Shown here in pieces: positions 17,776 to 33,364 of a DNA stretch of 51,878 bases. Below the pieces are notes generated by a model, which saw only the letters and a list, made by a program, of their open reading frames with translations, was not told where the DNA came from and ran no database searches. The stretch comes from an uncultured Erysipelotrichaceae bacterium. Its GTDB lineage: Bacteria; Bacillota_I; Bacilli_A; Erysipelotrichales; Erysipelotrichaceae. The position numbers were made by a program, and so were the translations under genes. The stretch is taken from the NCBI GenBank assembly GCA_945877405.1, contig CAMCSA010000013.1, forward strand, positions 1 to 51,878. Direction: 5' to 3'. Positions within the stretch are counted from its first letter, which is position 1, and every line of letters begins with the position of its first letter.

Positions 17776-18849
17776 ATGAAAAATCTGACATTATTGATTA
17801 AACCATCCAGCAGCAGATGTCAGCTGCGATGTAAATACTGCTTTTATATGGAAGAAAGCAGAAACAGAGAAACTGCAGACTATGGCTTCATGTCCATGGA
17901 TACTGCCACTAAGATGATCGAAAAGGCGGTTGCGTTCTGTGATGAGGATGGCGAGCTGACATTCATGTTTCAGGGTGGAGAACCGACCCTGATCGGTATT
18001 TCCTGGTATGAGGAATTCATTGCCTGTGTTGGAAAGATGAAGAAAGAAAAACAGACCATAACCTATGCCGTTCAGACAAATGGAATGCTTCTGGATGAGG
18101 CGTGGTTTTCATTATTGAAAAAATATGATTTTCTTGTTGGTCTTTCCATTGATGGCTTTCAGAGAAACCATGATTCAGCCAGACTTGATGCAGGCAATCA
18201 GAAAACATGGAATAAAGTCATCCATGCCTATCGCAAATGCATTCAGGAAGGTATCCGCGTCAATGTTCTGACAGTATTAACAGAAAAACTGGCAAAACAC
18301 CCGAAGGAATACTATGACTTTATTGTCAAAGAGGATATTGACTGGATTCAGCTGATTCCATGTCTGGATGAAGGTGCCAGAACGCCATATTCACTGATAC
18401 CAAAAAGCTACAGTTCGTTTTTTATTGCTTTGTTTGATCTTTGGTATGCAGAAATGAAAAAAGGAAGGCAGAGGTCGATCGGATTGTTTGATGATATCCT
18501 GAATATGCTGCAGGGATATGCCCCTGGGCAGTGTGGAAGACTAGGAAAGTGTTCCTGGCAGTATGTCATTGAAGCAGATGGTTCTGTATTCCCATGTGAT
18601 TTTTACTGTACAGATGAGTGGTTGCTTGGAAATATCGGGTGTGAATCCATGGAACAGTTAACAGACTGTCCAGTAAGAACTTCTTTTCTGAAAAGAGATG
18701 AGCAGGGAAAAAAGATCTGTGAGAAGTGCAGATATGAGAGTATCTGTGATGGTGGATGCATTCGGCAGAGAAACTGTTACCTTTCCGATAAGTATTGTGG
18801 GCATCAGAAGCTTTTATCACATATTGAATATTTAATGTATGGAAAATAA
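17776..18849 (+). CDS. Anaerobic sulfatase-maturing enzyme (radical SAM/SPASM)
   Basis: A 357-residue radical-SAM enzyme. SSRCQLRCKYCFY holds the CX3CX2C cluster-binding triad, FMFQGGEPTL the SAM-binding GGEP, and the C terminus the SPASM cysteines for two further Fe-S clusters (CGRLGKC, FPCDFYC, CEKCRYESICDGGC, YCGHQ). Length and order fit anSME, which oxidises the cysteine or serine of C/S-x-P/A-x-R to formylglycine without oxygen. It is the natural activator of sulfatases 1 and 2 in this window. Oxygen sensitivity supports an anaerobic host. Confidence 0.9.
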   Translation: MKNLTLLIKPSSSRCQLRCKYCFYMEESRNRETADYGFMSMDTATKMIEKAVAFCDEDGELTFMFQGGEPTLIGISWYEEFIACVGKMKKEKQTITYAVQTNGMLLDEAWFSLLKKYDFLVGLSIDGFQRNHDSARLDAGNQKTWNKVIHAYRKCIQEGIRVNVLTVLTEKLAKHPKEYYDFIVKEDIDWIQLIPCLDEGARTPYSLIPKSYSSFFIALFDLWYAEMKKGRQRSIGLFDDILNMLQGYAPGQCGRLGKCSWQYVIEADGSVFPCDFYCTDEWLLGNIGCESMEQLTDCPVRTSFLKRDEQGKKICEKCRYESICDGGCIRQRNCYLSDKYCGHQKLLSHIEYLMYGK

Positions 18850-19774: not shown

Positions 19775-19831
19775 ATAAAATGATATTTTATTTCGATAAT
19801 ATATTGAAATAATATTTTGCATTGATATACT
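19775..19831. promoter_or_regulatory. Sulfatase 2 promoter with RpiR-type boxes
   Basis: TTGAAA (19804-19809), 16-bp spacer, TATACT (19826-19831). The -35 and spacer form TTGAAATAATATTTTG. A related copy in the opposite direction (TCGAAATAAAATATC, read from 19794 down) faces rpiR2, which suggests autoregulation. Confidence 0.6.
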
Positions 19832-19971: not shown

Positions 19972-21459
19972 ATGACAAAAAAACCAAATATTGTCTACTT
20001 TGTGGCAGATCAGATGCGCAGTGATACACTGCATCATCTTGGCTGTGAAGCATCCATCACACCAAATCTTGACAGGCTTACACAGGAGGGGGTTTCTTTT
20101 GAAAATGCCTATTGCCAGAATCCGGTCTGTGTCCCAAGCAGATGTTCCTTCATGACCGGTCTGTATTGCCATACAACCGGGCATCGTACCATTCATTACA
20201 TGCAGAATCCAGGGGAACCGAATTTCCTGCGTACAATGAAGAATGCAGGATATGAAGTGTGCTGGGTAGGAAGAAATGATCTGATTCCGGCAAATATCAC
20301 AAAGGAGGAGTTCTGTGACCATTACTTCTGTGGTACAGGCAAGGATCTTGTTTCAACACCATCTGCAAATCAGCCAAAACCACATCCGGATCACGATACA
20401 CCTTCCATTGGATGTCCACATACCGAACCTGGTTTTTATGCCCATTTCCGTGGAAAGATCACGGAAGAACAGGCACACCGCCCGGCATCTGACTGGAGAT
20501 GTGTTGAGGAAGCAATTGCCTATATCAACGAAAAAAGCAAGGAACCGGATCATAAGCCGTTCTTCCTGTACTGTACAATTTCCTATCCGCATCCTCCATA
20601 TGCATGTGAGGATCCATGGTTTTCTTCCATTGATCGTTCAAAGTGCGAACCAAGAAGACCAAGTGCACTTGATCTGGATAAGCCAAGCATGCTGAAGGCA
20701 ATCGCTCTGCGACAGAATCTGAAAGAATGGGGGGATGACAACTTCATTGAAATGAGAGCTGTGTATCTGGCAATGGTGTCCCGCTTTGATCATCAGTACG
20801 GCATGATTGAAAAGGCACTCAGAGATGGCGGTCTTTACGATGATACATCGATCTTTGTATTCTCTGACCATGGTGATTACACAGGTGATTATGATATTGC
20901 AGAAAAGGTGCAGAACTGCTTTGAAGACTGTATTGTCAATGTACCGCTGCTTGTCAAACCGGCAAAACAGTTTGATGTAAAACCTGGTATTTCCAAAGTG
21001 CTTTGCGAACTTGTGGATGTTACCGCTACTGTAGAAGAAATGACCGGTGTAACAACAGAATATGTCAACTTCGGTAAATCACTTATGCCATCTCTTGCGG
21101 GAGAAACAGTGCATAAAGATGCTGTATTTAGCGAAGGTGGACGTATTCATGGAGAATACTGGGCAATGGAAAGAGGGCATAATGAAGACTCGGAATACTG
21201 GCCACGTCTGAGTGCGCAGTGTTCAGAAGGCCCTGAACATACCAAAGCAGCGATGATTCGCATGGGAAATCTGAAATATGTCATGCGTCTGTATGAAAAA
21301 GATGAACTTTATGATCTTGAAAAAGATCCAAAGGAACTTGTCAACAGAATTGATGAAACCCAATACCAGGGTGATATTGCCAGAATGAGAAACCGTCTGC
21401 TTCAGTGGTATATGGAAACAGCTGACTGGGTGCCAAACAGAAAAGATCCACGATTCTGA
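19972..21459 (+). CDS. Sulfatase 2 (Cys-type, cytosolic)
   Basis: A 495-residue S1 sulfatase with an intact formylglycine motif: Cys53-Val-Pro-Ser-Arg57 in NPVCVPSRCSFMTG. The metal site is complete: VADQMRSDTL at the N terminus and FSDHGDYTGDY with Asp299-His300. No signal peptide, so cytosolic. GGGAGAAAACC precedes the ATG. It ends YMETADWVPNRKDPRF, a tail shared with the protein at 31919, so the two are paralogues. It has its own promoter and a terminator, and is divergent from RpiR2. Substrate probably a sulfated monosaccharide or disaccharide taken up by PTS; inference. Confidence 0.9.
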   Translation: MTKKPNIVYFVADQMRSDTLHHLGCEASITPNLDRLTQEGVSFENAYCQNPVCVPSRCSFMTGLYCHTTGHRTIHYMQNPGEPNFLRTMKNAGYEVCWVGRNDLIPANITKEEFCDHYFCGTGKDLVSTPSANQPKPHPDHDTPSIGCPHTEPGFYAHFRGKITEEQAHRPASDWRCVEEAIAYINEKSKEPDHKPFFLYCTISYPHPPYACEDPWFSSIDRSKCEPRRPSALDLDKPSMLKAIALRQNLKEWGDDNFIEMRAVYLAMVSRFDHQYGMIEKALRDGGLYDDTSIFVFSDHGDYTGDYDIAEKVQNCFEDCIVNVPLLVKPAKQFDVKPGISKVLCELVDVTATVEEMTGVTTEYVNFGKSLMPSLAGETVHKDAVFSEGGRIHGEYWAMERGHNEDSEYWPRLSAQCSEGPEHTKAAMIRMGNLKYVMRLYEKDELYDLEKDPKELVNRIDETQYQGDIARMRNRLLQWYMETADWVPNRKDPRF

Positions 21460-23698: not shown

Positions 23699-24466
23699 TT
23701 ATCTGAGTGTTGTAACAAGGATGTTCAGCAGCACTTCAATATAGACGTAGAAGATTGCCTGATTGTCCAGATAGTATTCACTTGTTTCCTTATCGATTCT
23801 TGGTAACAGTACGGTTTTTGTACATAAAGGGAGAAAGGAAAGGACACGAGACATGGTAATGCATATGACTGGTGTGCCTTTGAAATGCATTTCTCTGACT
23901 GCAGCATCATAGTTACCCTGCCCGGAGATAGAGAAGATGATGAAAAGATCCTTTTCACCACAGATACTGGAAGCATCTTCGATATCACTTGAATCAAACA
24001 GCGCCTGTGAATCAATGCCGAGTCTGGAAAGCCGGCGTTTGAGCTGGATTGCGGAATGATAGGAACGGTTATAACCGACGATCATGATGCGCTCTGCACG
24101 GATGATCATCTGTGCGATTTCCTGCGTTTCTTCCATGGAAATCATATTGGCAATTTCCTGGATATAACTGCTGTAGGCAGATGTGATTGCATGAATCGGA
24201 TCCATGTTTTCATTCTGTGATGTGGCATTGCGTGATACAAGGTACCTGGAAAGGTCAAACCGCAGTGCAGAATACCCTTCATATCCGATCTTTTTGGAAA
24301 AGCGGACAAAGGCAGAAGGAGAAAGTTCTGACATTCGGGCAAGTTCATACAGTGTGTTTGTAACAATTGCGTGTGGATTGGACAGAATGAAATCGGCAAT
24401 CTGCTGATCGGTTTTTGTATAGTCACTGCGGTAGCTTTCGATTTTTTCTAAAGGATTGATGGACAT
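23699..24466 (-). CDS. RpiR/MurR-family regulator 3
   Basis: A 255-residue RpiR regulator: HTH (LYELARMSELSPSAFVRFSKKIGYEGYSALRFDLSRYL) and SIS domain (IMIVGYNRSYHSAIQLKRRLSRLGID...). AGGAG precedes ATG 24466. Divergent from the PTS/PRD operon that begins at 24576. The TTGAAATAAAATTTT box in the shared region is its likely operator. It shares the N-terminal SDYTKTDQQIADFIL pattern with RpiR2. Confidence 0.85.
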   Translation of the reverse strand: MSINPLEKIESYRSDYTKTDQQIADFILSNPHAIVTNTLYELARMSELSPSAFVRFSKKIGYEGYSALRFDLSRYLVSRNATSQNENMDPIHAITSAYSSYIQEIANMISMEETQEIAQMIIRAERIMIVGYNRSYHSAIQLKRRLSRLGIDSQALFDSSDIEDASSICGEKDLFIIFSISGQGNYDAAVREMHFKGTPVICITMSRVLSFLPLCTKTVLLPRIDKETSEYYLDNQAIFYVYIEVLLNILVTTLR

Positions 24467-24513: not shown

Positions 24514-24542
24514 TTGAAATAAAATTTTAAAACAGATATGAT
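24514..24542 (+). promoter_or_regulatory. Promoter of the PTS/PRD operon with RpiR-type box
   Basis: TTGAAA (24514-24519), 17-bp spacer, TATGAT (24537-24542). The -35/spacer reads TTGAAATAAAATTTTAAAAC, nearly the same as at 31868. Confidence 0.65.
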
Positions 24543-24575
24543 TGATACAGAAAGCATTCAATTGGAGGTATTCAG

Positions 24576-25004
24576 ATGGAAAAGAAAAAAACGGGAAGTG
24601 AAGTTGTTCGAAAAGCTGAAGAATCAGGCTTTTCAATGACCTATCATCAGGTTCTGCTTGTTGTGGAACTGTTTCTTTGCATGCGTAATGTACTCAATCT
24701 GATTACCTCATTTATGAATCCGGCAGGTACAGATCGTACGGTGGATCAGATCTTTTATGTCATCATGCTGGTGGTTGCGCTGATTTCAGTGGTTTTCCAT
24801 GATCGTAAGGCAGGGGTCATATCCTTACATGTATTCATTATGCTTGAGCTTGCCTGGACATGCTTTATTTATATGGTTGCAGGGTACAGAGGACTTGCTG
24901 TGCCGGATCTGAATGAGAAAATGTTTTCCTGGACGCTTGGATCCTTAGCCTGGTTTGTGCCGACATTGCTGTATTACAGGAAGAGGTGGAGGTTTCTGAA
25001 ATGA
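24576..25004 (+). CDS. Membrane protein of unknown function, 142 aa
   Basis: About four membrane helices (HQVLLVVELFLCMRNVLNLITSF; FYVIMLVVALISVVF; AGVISLHVFIMLELAWTCFIYMVAG; WTLGSLAWFVPTLLYY) and a Lys-rich N terminus. TTGGAGG precedes the ATG. First gene of the PTS/PRD operon and overlapping the regulator gene by 4 bp, so its product is made together with it. No family recognised. In position it resembles the small membrane protein of the sulfatase 1 operon, though sequence similarity is not obvious. Confidence 0.65.
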   Translation: MEKKKTGSEVVRKAEESGFSMTYHQVLLVVELFLCMRNVLNLITSFMNPAGTDRTVDQIFYVIMLVVALISVVFHDRKAGVISLHVFIMLELAWTCFIYMVAGYRGLAVPDLNEKMFSWTLGSLAWFVPTLLYYRKRWRFLK

Positions 25005-26971
25005 TGGATGTCAGATCTTTTGATGTCATTGACAGCCTGCATCGTGAAAAGGGGTATCTGGATGGCGATGAGCTTGCATCCTCTTTGGATATTTCTACCC
25101 GTACACTGCGTGATATCATCAGGGATGTCAGGGAACATATTGAGCAGTATGGTGCAACCATCAGCTATAAGAACAATTTTGGTTACAGGCTGGAGGTTCA
25201 TCAGAAAACACTGTTTGAGTCCTTTCTGGCGCAGGAAAAGAAAAATATAGAGAACATGCGTTTTGATTATCCGATCACATCTGCTGAGCGGTGTGATTAT
25301 ATCATCCGCCGTTTTCTGCTTTCTTCCACTCCGGTTAAATCAGATGATCTTTGTGAAGAACTCGGTATTTCAAAAACAACATTTGCCCAGGATCTGCGAC
25401 AGGTAAAACAGACTCTTTACAGATATGAACTGCATGTAGAAGTACAGGCAAAAAAAGGGCTTGTTGTATGTGGTAGTGAAAAGAACATGCAGAGCTGCAT
25501 GGCAGATTTCGTCTTTTACAACGATTATGCTTCATCCACTTCATTTACAACCCATTCGATCGGGCAGTTCTGCAGACAGTATGAACAGAAGATCAGAACA
25601 TGTGTCAATCGTGTTCTTTCAGACAATGACTATCATATGACAGACCTTGGCATCAATAATCTTGTTGTGCATATTCTGATCACTTTGTATCGGGGACAGA
25701 TGGATCCATCAAAGCCGAATCTTTCTGATGTGAAAATCAATGAAGATCAATATCATCTGGAAATATCCATGGCACAGCAGATGGCAGATCTGGTGTGTGA
25801 GTATACCGGTATGTCATTGCTGGAAGAAGAGCTTGGATTCATCGCAGTGCATATCATCGGATCAAGGCTTTTTTCCAAAGAAGATGAAAACCTGATATCG
25901 ATGGAAACGCTGAATCTTGTTAGAGATCTGTTTGATGAAATCAGAAGGCATTACGGCATCAGTTTCTTTGATGATATGGAGCTGTTTACACTGATGTGCA
26001 TGCATATGGAACCGATGATTCAAAGGGTACGTAACGGGATTCCGATGCGTAATCCGCTGCTGGAAACAATCAAGACAGAAAACCCGAATGGATATGATCT
26101 TGCGGTATATGCATGCCGATGGCTGTCACAACGGCTTCATGCAACCATCGATGAAAATGAAATGGGGTATATGGCACTGCATTTTGGCATTGCTTTGGAA
26201 GGAAAGAAAAAAGCGGGCAGAAAAAGGATACTAGCGGTATGTGCGTCAGGAGTAGGTACATCACGTATGCTGAAATACAATCTTGAAAAACTGTTTGGTA
26301 ACAGTGTGGAAAGCATTACAACAGCCAGAATGAGTGAAGTGATACAGATGGATCTGTCTGTATATGATCTGATTGTGACAACCGTACCGTTTGATCACCC
26401 TGTTTCAACAAGGGTTATACAGGTTGGATGCTTTCTTTCGCAAAGTGATCAGGATGCTTTACGGAATGCGTTTGCCGCTTCTTATGACAATGTAGACGGT
26501 CTTATAAAGGCGTTTGATCCTGCGATGTATATCGAAAACGGAGATGTTGAAACATGGCAACAGGCAGTAGAGCAACTGTATGGAAGAATGGCATCCTGCA
26601 TTGCAATGCCGGATGATTTTCTGAAGCTGACAATGGATCGTGAGAAGCTTTCTTGCACATATATCGGGAACCGTTGTGCTGTACCACATCCGACAAGTGT
26701 TCTGCTGGAAGAAAACAGAATCGCTGTCATGCATCTGAAAAAACCTGTTGTCTGGAGCAATGGGAAAAGAGTGGAATGGGTGTTCCTGATCGGTATGAAG
26801 CGCTATGAGGATGCCGGATCGGATCAGCTGATTCATGCACTGTATGAGCTGATTGGAGATGGCAATGCATTGAGGCAGTTGAAGATGGATGCTTCCTATG
26901 ACCATTTTATTCGCATATTGCAGTCTGTTTTATCTGTCCCGTCTGAAACGGAGGATGATTTTTTCCATTAA
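25001..26971 (+). CDS. PRD-type transcriptional regulator with EIIB and EIIA (LicR/MtlR-like)
   Basis: A 656-residue regulator. In order: two HTH modules (~1-65 and ~95-150), PRD1 (~190-290), PRD2 (~300-405), EIIB-like domain with AVCASGVGTSRML (~410-500), EIIA of mannitol/fructose type with AVPHPTSVLL (~515-650). The PRD histidines (NLVVHIL, IAVHIIG, LMCMHME, MALHFG), the EIIB cysteine and the EIIA histidine are all present, so it can be phosphorylated by HPr and the PTS. It probably activates this operon in response to transport. GAGGTGGAGG lies 8 nt before ATG 25001. Confidence 0.9.
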   Translation: MMDVRSFDVIDSLHREKGYLDGDELASSLDISTRTLRDIIRDVREHIEQYGATISYKNNFGYRLEVHQKTLFESFLAQEKKNIENMRFDYPITSAERCDYIIRRFLLSSTPVKSDDLCEELGISKTTFAQDLRQVKQTLYRYELHVEVQAKKGLVVCGSEKNMQSCMADFVFYNDYASSTSFTTHSIGQFCRQYEQKIRTCVNRVLSDNDYHMTDLGINNLVVHILITLYRGQMDPSKPNLSDVKINEDQYHLEISMAQQMADLVCEYTGMSLLEEELGFIAVHIIGSRLFSKEDENLISMETLNLVRDLFDEIRRHYGISFFDDMELFTLMCMHMEPMIQRVRNGIPMRNPLLETIKTENPNGYDLAVYACRWLSQRLHATIDENEMGYMALHFGIALEGKKKAGRKRILAVCASGVGTSRMLKYNLEKLFGNSVESITTARMSEVIQMDLSVYDLIVTTVPFDHPVSTRVIQVGCFLSQSDQDALRNAFAASYDNVDGLIKAFDPAMYIENGDVETWQQAVEQLYGRMASCIAMPDDFLKLTMDREKLSCTYIGNRCAVPHPTSVLLEENRIAVMHLKKPVVWSNGKRVEWVFLIGMKRYEDAGSDQLIHALYELIGDGNALRQLKMDASYDHFIRILQSVLSVPSETEDDFFH

Positions 26972-26986
26972 TCACGGAGGTGCTGT

Positions 26987-28525
26987 ATGAATGTTCTGAT
27001 TGTCTGTGCAGCAGGAATGTCTTCCAGCGCTCTTGCGCAGAGGTTCAGAGAAAAAATCAGAAAAGAGGGTCTGAATATCAGAGTGGGGACATGTGGTGTT
27101 ACACAATACCGTCAGCACCTGGCACATGCAGATCTTGTTTTCATTGCACCTCAGATCAGCTGGTTACAGAAAGAGCTGAATGAAAAGAAGATCATGTGTC
27201 TTGTCATACCGGAAAAGGCATATGGCGAAATGAATGCTGATGTACTTATGGATATGGCACTTCATCCTGATGAATATATACCAAAGGAAATGAAGGAGCC
27301 ATGGTATAAAGGAATTGTTGTGGGGTTTGCCCAAAGACGAAGTGTGATTGCGATTACAGATGGTTTCAGTTCACTGATGCCGGTATCTCTTGTCGGTTCC
27401 ATTCTTTCTCTTTGTAATGCGCTTCCGATTCCTTATCTGAATACACTGATTTCTTCCGGAATCGTTGGAGAGTATCTTTCGATCGGTGTCAGTATGACAA
27501 TGGGAATGCTTTCTTTGTATCTCAGTATTTTTATTGCGATGTCCTATTCTGAGCAGACTGGAGTATCAAAGGAGGGACTTGTTCTTTCCTGCATGGTTGA
27601 TTTTATAGCGGTCAGCGGGATTTCTCCACTGGAAGCACTGCAGACAGGCTTTTTTGATGGGCGTGGCATGTTATGTGCCACTGCAATCACGCTTGTGACA
27701 TGTCATCTGTATGAAACAGTTGATCGACTGCTTGTAAAAAGAAAGAAAGGGTATATTGCCAGCAATATCATCGACTCCTTCTATTCACTGATTCCTGTCA
27801 GTATCTGCATGTTTCTGACGGTAACAGTTTCGACGGTATTCTATTCCTGTTTCCATGTGCAGATAGCACAGTATATCAACGATTCGATTGTGGATGCCAT
27901 CGGCAGGTTTGCCGGTAACAGTGCCTCCACATTGCTGGGATTGAAAGTCCTTGCCACATTGTTTTGGTTTGTCGGTATCCATGGAGGAAAGCTGACAGGA
28001 ACGGTATCCAATCCGATTTTTCAACCGCTTTCTGCGGCAGATGTCAGAGCATGGACAAAGGGAGAAACACTTCCGTATCTGATCAATTCTCAGACATCTA
28101 ACATGTTTACATTCGGCGGGATCGGATCCACACTGTCATTGACATTTCTGATGCTTGTGATGTCAAAAAGCAGGAAGATGAAACAGCTGGGAAAAATATC
28201 GTTTCCAATGGGGATCTTCTTTATCAATGAACCTCTGATTTTTGGACTTCCGTTTGTATTGAATCTGTATCTGCTGATTCCTTTTACCCTGATACCGTTG
28301 ATCAGTGGTGTCATGACAATCATCGCCACACGTGTCGGATTTCTTCCTGCCTGTATCGGATTTGAAATACCATGGACGACGCCACCGCTGATCTCCGGAC
28401 TGATTCAGGGAGGGTGGAAACTTGCACTGTGGCAGGCCTTCATGCTTGTTTTGCAGGCAGCCATGTGGTACCCCGTCTTTCACCATCTTGATCAGGAAGC
28501 ATTGAAAGAAGAAAAGAGTGCGTAA
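26987..28525 (+). CDS. PTS EIIBC permease, lactose/cellobiose family
   Basis: A 512-residue fusion: EIIB (1-100) with the phospho-cysteine in MNVLIVCAAGMSSS (Cys7), linked to EIIC (~105-510) with FFINEPLIFGLPFVLN. It imports and phosphorylates a sugar. It starts 15 bp after the regulator stop with ACGGAGG as ribosome-binding site. No lactose-type EIIA is in the window. Confidence 0.9.
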   Translation: MNVLIVCAAGMSSSALAQRFREKIRKEGLNIRVGTCGVTQYRQHLAHADLVFIAPQISWLQKELNEKKIMCLVIPEKAYGEMNADVLMDMALHPDEYIPKEMKEPWYKGIVVGFAQRRSVIAITDGFSSLMPVSLVGSILSLCNALPIPYLNTLISSGIVGEYLSIGVSMTMGMLSLYLSIFIAMSYSEQTGVSKEGLVLSCMVDFIAVSGISPLEALQTGFFDGRGMLCATAITLVTCHLYETVDRLLVKRKKGYIASNIIDSFYSLIPVSICMFLTVTVSTVFYSCFHVQIAQYINDSIVDAIGRFAGNSASTLLGLKVLATLFWFVGIHGGKLTGTVSNPIFQPLSAADVRAWTKGETLPYLINSQTSNMFTFGGIGSTLSLTFLMLVMSKSRKMKQLGKISFPMGIFFINEPLIFGLPFVLNLYLLIPFTLIPLISGVMTIIATRVGFLPACIGFEIPWTTPPLISGLIQGGWKLALWQAFMLVLQAAMWYPVFHHLDQEALKEEKSA

Positions 28526-28636: not shown

Positions 28637-29932
28637 ATGCAGAAATTCATGAACTGGATGGAAGCACATGTCATGCCTCTTGCGGGAAAACTTGGAACAA
28701 ACCGTTATCTTAAGGCGATCAGTTCCGGTTTTATCGCCATCATGGCAGCAACAATCGTTGGTTCCATCTTCACACTCATCGGTAACCTGCCTTTTACAGG
28801 CTGGACCGCATGGCTGGCTTCAACAGGCCTCAATAAGATTCTGGCACTGCCAGGTCAGTGTACAACTGATCTGATTGCCGTTTATGCAGTATTCTTCATT
28901 GCATACAACCTGGCACAGACATTCGAAGTAGATGGTAAGGGTGCAGGTCTTGCTGCTCTGGTATCCTTCTTTGTTGTAACAGGCAGAGCGACATATTTTG
29001 CTGCAGCTGCGGAAGGTGCAGCAGCAGTCAGTGCACTTTCCACAGGATTCCTTGGCGCAAAGGGTCTGTTTACAGCCATGATCGTTGCATTGCTCGGCGC
29101 AAGAATCTATGTATTCATTGTCAAGAAGGGCTGGGTTATCAAGCTCCCGGATTCTGTACCACCAAATGTTGCAGGTTCCTTCAATGCTCTGATTCCATCT
29201 TTCTTTGTTGTCATTGTCTTCCTGCTTGTTGCGATGGGAATGAGCTTTACTTCCTATGGTGATCTGCACACAATGATCTTTACAGTCATTCAGTCTAACC
29301 TGATGAGATTCATGGGTGATAACATCTTCTCATGGCTGTTCTTCAACTTCATGACAAACATCCTGTGGTTCTTCGGTCTGCACGGTGGTAACATTGTCGG
29401 TTCCATTACAAACCCGGTATATACACCACTTGCTCTGGAAAACCTGGCAGCTTTTGAAGCAGGTGAAACAGTCATGCCTTATATCATCACAGGTTCTTTC
29501 GGAAAGACATTCACATTCGGTGGTGTCGGTTCCATGTTCGGCTTGGCAATTCTGATGACATTCTTTGCCAAGTCCAAACAGTATAAAATGCTTGGTAAGC
29601 TCTCACTTCCAACAACATTCTTCTTCATCAACGAACCTCTGCTGTTCGGTATTCCGGTTGTGTTGAATCCACTGTTCTTCCTGCCGCTGATGTTTACAAC
29701 ACCTCTGCTTGGTACACTGACATATTTCATGATGAAGATCGGTATCGTTCCGATTCCACATGGTATCCAGCTTCCTTGGACCATGCCACCGGTATTCAAC
29801 GGATTCCTGCAGGCAGGTATTGGTCTTGCAATATGGGAAGTACTGATGGTTATCGCATCCATGATCATCTATTATCCATTCTTCAGAATGGGCGATAAAC
29901 AGGCTCTTGCTGAAGAAAACGGCGAAGCATAA
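28637..29932 (+). CDS. PTS EIIC permease, cellobiose/diacetylchitobiose family
   Basis: A 431-residue permease with about ten helices, early YLKAISSGFIAIMAATIVGS, WFFGLHGGNIVGSITNP and FFINEPLLFGIPVVLNP. AAAAGGAG before the ATG. It lacks EIIB, which the preceding EIIBC protein could supply. Immediately followed by a ChbG-like deacetylase, a pairing known from diacetylchitobiose operons, so an N-acetylated sugar is likely the cargo. Confidence 0.9.
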   Translation: MQKFMNWMEAHVMPLAGKLGTNRYLKAISSGFIAIMAATIVGSIFTLIGNLPFTGWTAWLASTGLNKILALPGQCTTDLIAVYAVFFIAYNLAQTFEVDGKGAGLAALVSFFVVTGRATYFAAAAEGAAAVSALSTGFLGAKGLFTAMIVALLGARIYVFIVKKGWVIKLPDSVPPNVAGSFNALIPSFFVVIVFLLVAMGMSFTSYGDLHTMIFTVIQSNLMRFMGDNIFSWLFFNFMTNILWFFGLHGGNIVGSITNPVYTPLALENLAAFEAGETVMPYIITGSFGKTFTFGGVGSMFGLAILMTFFAKSKQYKMLGKLSLPTTFFFINEPLLFGIPVVLNPLFFLPLMFTTPLLGTLTYFMMKIGIVPIPHGIQLPWTMPPVFNGFLQAGIGLAIWEVLMVIASMIIYYPFFRMGDKQALAEENGEA

Positions 29933-30003: not shown

Positions 30004-30795
30004 ATGAAACTTTTAATTCAGTCCGATGACTACGGCATGACACCAGCCGTAGCTGATGGCATTATTTATGGAATTACACATGGTGTTGTACGTAATACAG
30101 GCATGTTTACAAACATGCCCTGGGCAAAGGAATGCGTAGAAAAGATCAGACCGTATCTGGGTCAGATCGCATTCGGTATTGACCTGAATGCTTCTACAGG
30201 ATGTTCTTTGCTTGGTTATGACAAAGTACCAAATCTCTGTCATCCGGATGGTTCCTTTCTGACATCAAAGGAAAACCGTGCTGCAGATGAAAGTGCACCG
30301 AACCATGATCATGTCGATCATGATCAGCTGTATGCAGAATTTGATGCACAGGTACAGAAGTTCATTGAACTTGTCGGCAAGGTTCCGGATTACATTCATG
30401 CCCATGCCTATGGCACTGCCACAACAGAAAGAGTCAGAAGGGAAATCGCTCAGAAATACGACCGTCCATATTCCAAGGCTACAGCAGATCTGCTGATCGG
30501 AGATTATGCAAGAATGGGATGGTATATCATGGGATCCCCAGAGGCACAGTTAAAGGAAGATCTGGAATCTTATATTGTTGAGAATAAGGCTGGCTTTGAC
30601 AAAGATGGCTATGGCTATCTGATCACACACTGCGGTTATGCAGATGCACGGCTGTTTGAACTGTCCAGCTTCAGTTTATGCAGAGTCAAGGATCTGGAAG
30701 CTCTGACATCCGAGCGTGTGAAAAACTGGATCGCATATAACAATGTTGAACTGATCACATTCAACGATCTGGATCGTGATCATTGGGCGAACTGA
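30004..30795 (+). CDS. ChbG/HpnK-family carbohydrate deacetylase
   Basis: A 263-residue YdjC-fold protein. QSDDYGMTPAVADGII carries the metal Asp pair; IHAHAYGT and ITHCGYADA carry later histidines. The usual GxHLN motif reads GIDLN: His replaced by Asp (FGIDLNAST). In ChbG that His is a metal ligand. So either an Asp takes over or the enzyme differs. Family role: removal of the acetyl group from an N-acetylglucosamine-6-phosphate-type disaccharide. CAGGAGAG before the ATG. Its place after PTS permeases agrees with processing of imported amino sugars. Confidence 0.8.
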   Translation: MKLLIQSDDYGMTPAVADGIIYGITHGVVRNTGMFTNMPWAKECVEKIRPYLGQIAFGIDLNASTGCSLLGYDKVPNLCHPDGSFLTSKENRAADESAPNHDHVDHDQLYAEFDAQVQKFIELVGKVPDYIHAHAYGTATTERVRREIAQKYDRPYSKATADLLIGDYARMGWYIMGSPEAQLKEDLESYIVENKAGFDKDGYGYLITHCGYADARLFELSSFSLCRVKDLEALTSERVKNWIAYNNVELITFNDLDRDHWAN

Positions 30796-30860: not shown

Positions 30861-31775
30861 ATGGAAATACTGACAATACTGTTAAAGCAGATTGTTCTGA
30901 TGTTTGTTCTGATCATGATCGGTTATGTACTTTGCAGAAAAAAACTGATCACATTACAGGGCAGTGGAGAAATGGGGAAAATACTGTTGAATGTTGTCAT
31001 ACCATGTGTGATTATCAACAGTTTCTGGTGTGAAAGAACAGCAGAGAAAACAGCATCCCTGCTGCAGGGAAGCGTGATTGCTGCAGTTGTGATGGCAGTT
31101 GCGGTGATCATTTCCACACTTGTATATGGTTTAAGGGATGGCGTAGCGTGTTTTTCTTCCGCTTTTTCCAATGCCGGATTCATCGGTATCCCACTTGTAC
31201 AGGCGGTTCTGGGCAGTTCTGCCGTATTCTATCTTTCTCTGATGATTGTTCTTGTCAATTTTCTGCAGTGGACATATGGACTGTATGTGCTTACCGGGGA
31301 TAAGGGAAAGATGAAGCTGTCAGTTGTGGCAACCAATCCGGTTGTCATTTCTGTAGTGGCTGGAATCGTGATCTATTTCCTGAATCTGCCTCGGTTTGCC
31401 TTTACAGATACACTGATCTCCTCCATCACAGCAGTCAATACACCACTGGCAATGCTTGTGACCGGTGTCTATCTGGCGCAGTCGCCTTTATACGATATCA
31501 TCTCGGATCAGAATACATGGAAGGTATCCGTTCTGCGCTTATTGATCATACCTGTCGTATCGCTACTTGTGATAAAGCTGTTCCCGTTTGGTACACAGGA
31601 AATGAAAGTTGCGATCATGATTGCGGCTGCCTGTCCGGTTGGATCAAATGTATCCATCTTTGCGCAACAGGTTGGAGCATCCTTCAAGGATGCAACATGT
31701 CAGGTATGTCTTTCCACAATTCTGTGTCTTGCAACAATACCGCTGATGACACTTGTAACAACGATGATTTTATGA
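30861..31775 (+). CDS. AEC-family transporter
   Basis: A 304-residue auxin-efflux-carrier-type protein with about ten helices, starting LKQIVLMFVLIMIGYVLCRKKLI, containing SAFSNAGFIGIPLVQAVLG and ACPVGSNVSIFAQQVG. Family members move organic anions. It may export an acid or an end product of the sugar pathway. AAAGGGG before the ATG. Confidence 0.85.
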   Translation: MEILTILLKQIVLMFVLIMIGYVLCRKKLITLQGSGEMGKILLNVVIPCVIINSFWCERTAEKTASLLQGSVIAAVVMAVAVIISTLVYGLRDGVACFSSAFSNAGFIGIPLVQAVLGSSAVFYLSLMIVLVNFLQWTYGLYVLTGDKGKMKLSVVATNPVVISVVAGIVIYFLNLPRFAFTDTLISSITAVNTPLAMLVTGVYLAQSPLYDIISDQNTWKVSVLRLLIIPVVSLLVIKLFPFGTQEMKVAIMIAAACPVGSNVSIFAQQVGASFKDATCQVCLSTILCLATIPLMTLVTTMIL

Positions 31776-31779
31776 AAAT

Positions 31780-31810
31780 ATGCAGATGGGAATCTGCATG
31801 TTTTCATTTT
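31780..31810 (+). terminator. AEC transporter terminator
   Basis: Perfect 8-bp stem ATGCAGAT/ATCTGCAT with a GGGA loop, then GTTTTCATTTTT. Confidence 0.75.
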
Positions 31811-31867
31811 TGGGCAATGGGAAAAAATATCCTTCACCAACAGTTGAAAAAACTTTTTGGTGTGATA

Positions 31868-31896
31868 TTGAAATAAATTTTAAAACAATTAATATG
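31868..31896 (+). promoter_or_regulatory. Promoter of sulfatase-like gene 3 with RpiR-type box
   Basis: TTGAAATAAATTTTAAAACA (31868-31887) nearly repeats the box at 24514. TTGAAA serves as -35 and TAATAT (16-bp spacer) or TATGAT (19-bp) as -10. Confidence 0.55.
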
Positions 31897-31918
31897 ATGG
31901 TATAGGGAGGGGTTACAT

Positions 31919-33364
31919 ATGAAGAAGCCTGATATTGTACTGTTTACCGCAGATGGCATGCGCCTTGACAGTCTTGCTTGTATGGGGAATCGTGCAGCCT
32001 GGACACCGCATATGGATGCCCTGGTAAAGGAAGGAGTTGCCTTCCGCAATGCTTATTGCCAGAATCCTTCTGTTGTTGCAGGAAGGTGTTCTGTCATGAG
32101 TGGTCTGTATCCGCATACAACAGGACACAGATCGATGCATTATCTGTTAAGACCGGATGAACCGAACCTGTTGCGGATCATGAAGGATGCAGGGTATGAA
32201 GTCATCTGGGCAGGCAAGAATGATCTGATCCCGTCAGATGCGGATAAAAGTGAATACTGTGATGCGTGGTTTGATGGTGTGCATGATCAGGATGCAAGAA
32301 AGATATACTGTTACCTGAGTACTACCATGAAACGGATGAATGCCCGCATGTCCGAGCAGGATTATTCTTTTTTCAATGGAGTATCGACAGGGCAGGAAAA
32401 AACAGACGAGAAGTCTGTGGAAAGCATTCTGAAATACCTGGATGACAGAAAAGAAAGAAATGATGCAAAACCGGTGTTCATCTACTGCAATCTTTCATTT
32501 CCTCACGTTCCATATGGTGTCAGTCAGCCATGGTATTCTCTGATTGACCGCAATCAGCTGCAAGAAAGAAAGCCATGGTGCCCAGATAAGCCGGAAATGC
32601 TTGTATTGACGGCAGATCGTATGAATCTGCATGAGTGGACAACGGAAGATTGGAATGAATTAAGAGCTGTATATCTTGGTATGGTTGCCAAGTGGGACAG
32701 CCTGCTTGGAAAAGTGGTGCAGAAACTGAAGGAACATGGTTTCTATGACAATACATCCATCATTGCATGTTCCTATCATGGGGATTATACAGGGGACTAT
32801 GATATTGTGGAAACAGTGCAGAACTGTTTTGAAGATGTTCTGACCAATGTTCCTCTGATCATAAAACCTGCTGTACAGTTTTCTGTAAAACCACGTATCA
32901 CAGATGCACTTGTGGAGCTTGTGGATCTTTCTGCAACGATTCTGGAAATGAGTGATATACAGATAGATCATGTGCAGTATGGGGAATCTTTAATGCATGT
33001 TCTGGCTGGTGATGAAGTGCATAAGGATGCCGTATTCTGTGAAGGTGGCAGACCATATGGAGATATCTATGCAATGGAAAACGGACATGAAAATCCATCG
33101 GATCCATATTGGCCAAGAATGTCTGTACAGCAGATGGATGATGCACATGCAAGGGCTACGATGATCCGAATGGGAAACCTGAAATATACGATGCGGATGA
33201 GTGGGAAAGATGAACTGTATGATCTTAGCATTGATCCGGATGAAACAGTTAACCTCATCGATCAGCCATCCTATGAAGATGATGTGCTGAAAATGAAGCT
33301 ACGGATGCTGGAATGGTATCAGCAGACAGCAGACTGGATTCCATCACGTAAGGATATCCGATAA
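31919..33364 (+). CDS. Sulfatase-family protein lacking the catalytic cysteine (pseudosulfatase)
   Basis: A 481-residue intact paralogue of sulfatase 2. Aligned to its CQNPVCVPSRCSFMTG, this protein reads CQNPSVVAGRCSVMSG: the formylglycine Cys is Val52, and the Pro and Ser of the motif are Ala and Gly. The C-terminal metal motif SDHGDYTGDY is SYHGDYTGDY: the Asp ligand is Tyr286. So both the nucleophile and a metal ligand are lost, yet the frame is full length with a strong GGAGGGG ribosome-binding site and a regulated promoter. It may bind the substrate, regulate or act as a non-catalytic partner. The Ser51 next to Val52 is out of register. Cytosolic; no signal peptide. Confidence 0.85.
   Translation: MKKPDIVLFTADGMRLDSLACMGNRAAWTPHMDALVKEGVAFRNAYCQNPSVVAGRCSVMSGLYPHTTGHRSMHYLLRPDEPNLLRIMKDAGYEVIWAGKNDLIPSDADKSEYCDAWFDGVHDQDARKIYCYLSTTMKRMNARMSEQDYSFFNGVSTGQEKTDEKSVESILKYLDDRKERNDAKPVFIYCNLSFPHVPYGVSQPWYSLIDRNQLQERKPWCPDKPEMLVLTADRMNLHEWTTEDWNELRAVYLGMVAKWDSLLGKVVQKLKEHGFYDNTSIIACSYHGDYTGDYDIVETVQNCFEDVLTNVPLIIKPAVQFSVKPRITDALVELVDLSATILEMSDIQIDHVQYGESLMHVLAGDEVHKDAVFCEGGRPYGDIYAMENGHENPSDPYWPRMSVQQMDDAHARATMIRMGNLKYTMRMSGKDELYDLSIDPDETVNLIDQPSYEDDVLKMKLRMLEWYQQTADWIPSRKDIR

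Follow-up and report, generated by a model that had tools for sequence, protein, structure and literature searches.

A putative pseudosulfatase, probably maintained, in a sulfatase-PTS locus of an uncultured Erysipelotrichaceae bacterium

Gene content of the locus

The window, that is, the whole stretch of 51,878 nucleotides analyzed here, carries at 31919..33364 of the forward strand the gene of what appears to be a catalytically dead S1-type sulfatase (referred to below as the dead sulfatase). Among the genes upstream of it, also on the forward strand, are a probable anaerobic sulfatase maturase of the radical SAM/SPASM type (17776..18849), whose best NCBIfam match, TIGR03942 (E 1.7e-91), falls under the curated cut-off, and sulfatase 2 (19972..21459), in which alignment and motif reading indicate an intact active site (C53, D300, H301, and K313). 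On the reverse strand, an RpiR-like regulator (23699..24466) is divergent from the PTS operon; it was recognized by resemblance, by similarity to the RpiR-like genes of comparable loci, and by an operator-like site in the intergenic region that separates it from the operon.

The remaining forward-strand genes are a PRD-domain PTS regulator with EIIA (24986..26971) and a PTS EIIB-EIIC fusion (26987..28525), both found by profile search, a PTS EIIC of the lactose/cellobiose family (28637..29932; TIGR00410 above cut-off), a YdjC-like protein of the chitin-disaccharide deacetylase type (30004..30795; PF04794), and a membrane transporter (30861..31775) that, on a reading of its sequence, resembles auxin efflux carriers (AEC). 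Just upstream of the PRD regulator there is a short ORF (24565-24985), probably membrane bound, and ORFs of similar size (about 140 to 170 amino acids), matched by position, precede the PRD regulator in the PRD-EIIBC-EIIC-YdjC clusters of several relatives (L088:6099-6536, L091:9479-9925, L092:4148-4594, and L089:7283-7801). Three tandem YdjC-like genes lie beside the PTS EIIC in L086 and L091 (genomes G070 and G061), 58-61% and 27-29% identical to the window copy.

The frame of the dead sulfatase is intact, running for 481 codons (481 amino acids) from an ATG, and aligns end to end with sulfatase 2 at 50% identity, in agreement with the full-length frame described in the original prediction. 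As expected of an S1 sulfatase, the protein matches PF00884, with 116.6 bits against a cut-off of 25, and its AlphaFold2 model (pLDDT 90.1, pTM 0.92) has S1 sulfatases and phosphonate monoester hydrolases as top Foldseek matches (TM about 0.76). In fold and in PF00884, it is like the S1 sulfatases of the PMH/SpAS2/EfAS type (PDB 9KOQ, 4UPL, and 2VQR), whose D-Q-x-R metal strand, Asp-His pair, and Lys 13 residues after the metal Asp are found in its intact relatives. Unlike them, it has neither the formylglycine Cys nor the second metal Asp, the Lys, or the Gln.

Loss of the catalytic center

Sulfatase 2 and the dead sulfatase read NPVCVPSRCS and NPSVVAGRCS, respectively, at one catalytic motif, and SDHGDYTGDY and SYHGDYTGDY at the other. 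The replacement of the formylglycine Cys by Val52 and of a metal Asp by Tyr286, which had been predicted, is indeed present (GTT at 32072-32074 and TAT at 32774-32776). The catalytic loss was real and had been understated, since K299T, Q13G, P54A, and S55G are also changes of the catalytic center. Codon comparison and homolog columns place the change of the formylglycine motif, V-C-V-P-S to S-V-V-A-G with the nucleophile Cys52 turned into Val, at codons 51-55 (32069..32083, forward strand, as are the codons that follow), and the C, P, and S of this motif are present in all 49 homologs compared. The same 49 homologs invariably have D at position 286 (32774..32776; metal-ligand Asp to Tyr, GAT to TAT) and K at position 299 (32813..32815; sulfate-binding Lys to Thr), while at position 13 (31955..31957), which adjoins the metal ligand Asp12, they have Q (38) or E (11), and Gly is found only in the dead sulfatase. 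Of the four metal ligands, only Asp12 and His287 are left (C52 and D286 having become V and Y), the active-site Lys is missing, and V52-V-A-G-R56, where C-x-P-S-R has become V-x-A-G-R, does not match the maturation motif [CS]-x-[PA]-x-R.

Mutants of the Enterococcus arylsulfatase EfAS (PDB 9KOQ) bear on each of these positions. Its metal ligands are D20, C61, D311, and H312, whereas K324 forms a bond with Q21; activity is wholly lost in Q21A and Q21D, absent in C61A and D311N, and minimal in K324A (PMC12421950). By motif spacing (Asp and Gln adjacent; Cys, with Arg at +4; Asp-His, with Lys at +13 from the Asp), Q21, C61, D311, and K324 were mapped to positions 13, 52, 286, and 299. All four equivalents are lost in the dead sulfatase, which brings catalysis by the sulfatase mechanism close to being excluded, and, judging from these residues, we consider it nearly certain that its sulfatase activity is gone.

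The protein could still be an enzyme of the alkaline phosphatase superfamily with a changed chemistry, using another nucleophile or metal site, e.g., Ser51 or a His. Asp12, Arg56, His196, and His287 are retained, Lys100 is found where most homologs carry Arg, and several residues of the pocket are new (T10, G13, S51, G55, V197, C284, and Y286), all of which speaks for such a conversion. However, it is Val that sits at the superfamily nucleophile position, with Ser51 one residue off, and known members of the superfamily have Thr, Ser, or formylglycine there. Since the protein has lost its nucleophile together with a metal Asp, the Lys that binds sulfate, and the Gln paired with it, and since single changes of the metal Asp, Lys, or Gln in EfAS abolish or nearly abolish activity, a changed chemistry seems improbable.

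Around Cys52, the relative L004 reads CCT GTC TGT GTT and the dead sulfatase CCT TCT GTT GTT. The step from GTCTGT to TCTGTT amounts to rotating the DNA by one base, so that a deletion and an insertion lying a few bases apart may account for V-C becoming S-V more simply than five substitutions would, a reading that we made post hoc. The same rotation could also come from an assembly or sequencing artifact, given that the genome is a draft of 86 contigs and that the dead gene is represented by one sequence only. We give an artifact very little credence, because at least six separate codons of the catalytic center, spread across 860 bp, are altered, some of them at two or even all three positions, and the reading frame is intact; errors would not concentrate at catalytic residues.

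The 49 full-length homologs have 65 invariant columns, 57 of which are kept in the dead sulfatase and 8 changed (C52V, P54A, S55G, F59V, T72S, D286Y, K299T, and V474I). The changes affect 4 of the 8 catalytic invariant residues versus 4 of the 57 others (Fisher P 0.006). Among the family-invariant residues kept outside the catalytic center are H66, R71, Y199, D289, D293, E375-R378, and H410, a pattern that would fit a preserved sugar site.

Homologs and origin

Homologs were searched for in family, order, and phylum samples, in Coriobacteriaceae, and in plasmids, with a genome sample that covers about half of the known species at one genome per species; the dead gene itself comes from one genome, and two plasmid matches were left out of the motif reading. 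The Cys is kept in 76 of the 76 homologs with a readable motif (the 49 of the main alignment and 27 more), and Asp is found at position 286 in every homolog read there. There is therefore no pseudosulfatase clade in the sampled genomes. The family of dead enzymes envisaged in the original prediction did not appear, and even the syntenic ortholog of a genus-mate has both residues. Only this genome differs, an outcome that had been thought to tell against a real pseudosulfatase and that has to be read with a nearest homolog only 60% identical and with a single strain of this species in the sample. No second dead member was found among the family, order, phylum, Coriobacteriaceae, and plasmid loci read, all of which have the Cys. 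A genome scan returned two loci, a scan of viral contigs found nothing, and in the open papers searched we found no described pseudosulfatase.

Some of the loci deserve a separate comment. Two copies that seemed to be motif-less, L095 and L096, were discarded as such, being truncated by the contig or bearing a deletion and having Cys and Asp where these could be read. L096 (G016:C2, 5514-6831), from the same genus, has an internal deletion with the Cys and Asp motifs kept, i.e., ordinary sulfatase decay. In L128 and L131 (G093:C24 and G098:C26), the Gln of position 13 is replaced by His and the Lys of position 299 by Ile, with Cys and Asp intact, and judging from these residues they are a divergent subgroup of sulfatases in which the sulfate-binding pair is changed. 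Lastly, the related sulfatase L135 (G394:C1:426451-427908) contains six in-frame TGA codons in a genome of 0.9 Mb, which would be expected if TGA codes for Trp in that genome.

In the phylogenetic tree, the dead sulfatase is sister to L006 (support 95/92) within a clade of intact sulfatases, some of them from Coriobacteriaceae, and sulfatase 2 falls in another clade. L006 (G081:C1:3227-4699), from a genus-mate, is the nearest homolog (60% identity), but it has all the catalytic residues and a branch half as long. The genes beside it are an EIIC 74-75% identical to the EIIC at 28637 and a YdjC 74% identical to the YdjC at 30004. Since L006 lies between these matching genes, the dead gene is best seen as the ortholog of the active sulfatase of a PTS-YdjC operon, although the order is EIIC-sulfatase-YdjC in G081 and EIIC-YdjC-AEC-sulfatase in the window. 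Tree and synteny rule out that the dead gene is a duplicate of sulfatase 2, and the earlier view of the two as paralogs has to be abandoned as regards close paralogy, since the tree puts them in separate clades. Eight further genomes have PRD-EIIBC-EIIC-YdjC clusters; in some of them another sulfatase is present, and in others none is nearby.

Selection and decay

Between the dead sulfatase and L006, dN is 0.36 and dS about 1.3-2, which gives a dN/dS of about 0.2-0.3 (NG86 and LWL85; YN00 was saturated), an approximate value because dS is near saturation. A ratio near 1 against the nearest homolog, which had been proposed as evidence against maintenance, was thus not found. With L004 as outgroup, dN splits into about 0.23 on the branch of the dead sulfatase and 0.125 on the sister branch, and in the tree the branch of the dead sulfatase is twice as long as that of L006 (0.87 versus 0.43), so that constraint is partly relaxed. 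By these estimates, the dead sulfatase has evolved more quickly than its sister, yet far from neutrally.

These changes are concentrated at the active site. Of 11 residues chosen in advance from the EfAS paper, the dead sulfatase differs at six, compared to 41 of the 231 other columns in which eight sisters agree (P 0.008), and within two residues of the chosen sites change is enriched in the dead sulfatase (P 0.03) but not in the intact L006 (P 0.89).

The gene might nonetheless be a pseudogene in early decay, neutral after the loss of activity and not yet interrupted by a stop. The restriction of the dead state to one lineage, the doubled branch with its higher dN, the presence of a sulfatase 2 that could cover the function, and the decay that does occur in the family (the internal deletion of L096 in G016) all favor this explanation. 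However, the decaying L096 represents the opposite case, a broken gene with an intact motif, and the promoter and Shine-Dalgarno sequence of the dead sulfatase are retained. Several codons of its catalytic center are changed at two or even all three positions (Q13G, CAG to GGC; C52V; S55G), and therefore the loss was not a single recent hit. In simulations of neutral decay over eight durations, the joint outcome observed, a frame free of stops with four or more of the 8 catalytic residues hit but no more than four of the 57 other invariant ones, had a P of at most 0.0002 at each of them. Considering all this, we regard a decaying pseudogene as unlikely. The earlier claim of catalytic loss without decay is backed by the selection tests, by the simulations, and by a promoter site shared with other genes of the locus. 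The dead sulfatase has thus lost its catalytic residues and kept its frame and fold under purifying selection, as expected of a maintained pseudoenzyme, this being indirect evidence in which dS is near saturation and the nearest homolog is 60% identical; a dead state conserved across lineages, also expected of such proteins, was not seen in the sampled loci.

Expression signals

After the upstream gene, an inverted repeat followed by a T-rich tail (31772..31811; 16-nt arms, 94% complementary) is likely its terminator, although the terminator scan scored it only in the minus-strand reading. With this terminator-like repeat upstream, the dead sulfatase probably uses its own promoter, which we place, together with a putative RpiR-linked operator, at 31868..31895 of the forward strand (TTGAAATAAATTTTAAAACAATTAATAT). 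The sigma-70-like promoter at 31868-31895 matches the consensus no better than chance. It is followed by the Shine-Dalgarno sequence GGGAGGGG (31905..31912, forward strand), the ribosome-binding site that had been noticed before.

The operator-like site was recognized by the shared pattern TTGAAATAAN{0,3}TTTT, which occurs 6 times in the 2.1-Mb genome, compared to 0 for the reversed control, and which is represented in the dead-gene promoter by TTGAAATAAATTTT. Three sites are in the window (19804-19818, 24514-24528, and 31868-31881), which precede sulfatase 2, the PTS operon (transcribed divergently from the RpiR gene at 23699), and the dead gene, respectively, the one at 31868 being one base shorter than the ungapped form. 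Of the other three occurrences in the genome, two differ in their spacer and one falls within an ORF. The same site (TATTGAAATAAATTTTAAAA) is found in another genus, between an RpiR gene and an EIIC-sulfatase PTS operon (L059:8041). An operator-like site common to the promoters of sulfatase 2, the PTS genes, and the dead gene is what would be expected of an RpiR-regulated sulfatase/PTS regulon and gives substance to the RpiR-type promoter of the original prediction. We infer from this distribution that RpiR may bind the site. The upstream inverted repeat CACCAA...TTGGTG folds no better than shuffled sequences.

Possible role of the dead sulfatase

On balance, the evidence points with moderate confidence to a maintained, lineage-specific pseudosulfatase that would bind a sulfated sugar or partner sulfatase 2. 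A maintained non-enzymatic role or a changed chemistry had both been suggested; the former is the best reading, restricted to a single lineage, and the latter is unlikely. The S1-type fold would descend from the cytosolic sulfatase encoded in a PTS-YdjC operon, its catalytic chemistry having been lost in this lineage and the gene afterwards retained by selection. Coexpressed with the sulfated-sugar uptake system, the dead sulfatase would bind the sulfated sugar, which may be phosphorylated as well, and leave it uncut; alternatively, it would be the partner of the active sulfatase 2, serving as a subunit for binding, buffering, or regulation. More specifically, and only tentatively, we propose that the remodeled catalytic center of the operon's own sulfatase allows it to bind the sulfated PTS sugar in the cytosol or to dock to sulfatase 2, and that it serves the sulfated-glycan uptake regulon as sensor, buffer, or regulatory subunit.

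Pseudoenzymes are well described among kinases, proteases, and some glycosidases. Heparanase 2, the counterpart of heparanase 1 (PMC12406646), and pseudo-orthocaspases (PMC6426788) are reported to represent a comparable situation, with catalytic residues or activity lost, the fold kept, and an active counterpart known. However, these are families with several described members, whereas the dead sulfatase is a single lineage.

The Pfam sulfatase profile labels this gene a sulfatase, though to judge from its residues the product would be unable to work by the known mechanism, and counts of sulfatases in genomes made by profile alone can therefore mislead. If the gene is maintained, it would offer a clear example of catalysis lost in a single lineage. 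An active ortholog is in synteny in a genus-mate and an active paralog is in the same cluster, and with both at hand the gain of a noncatalytic role could then be tested by direct comparison.
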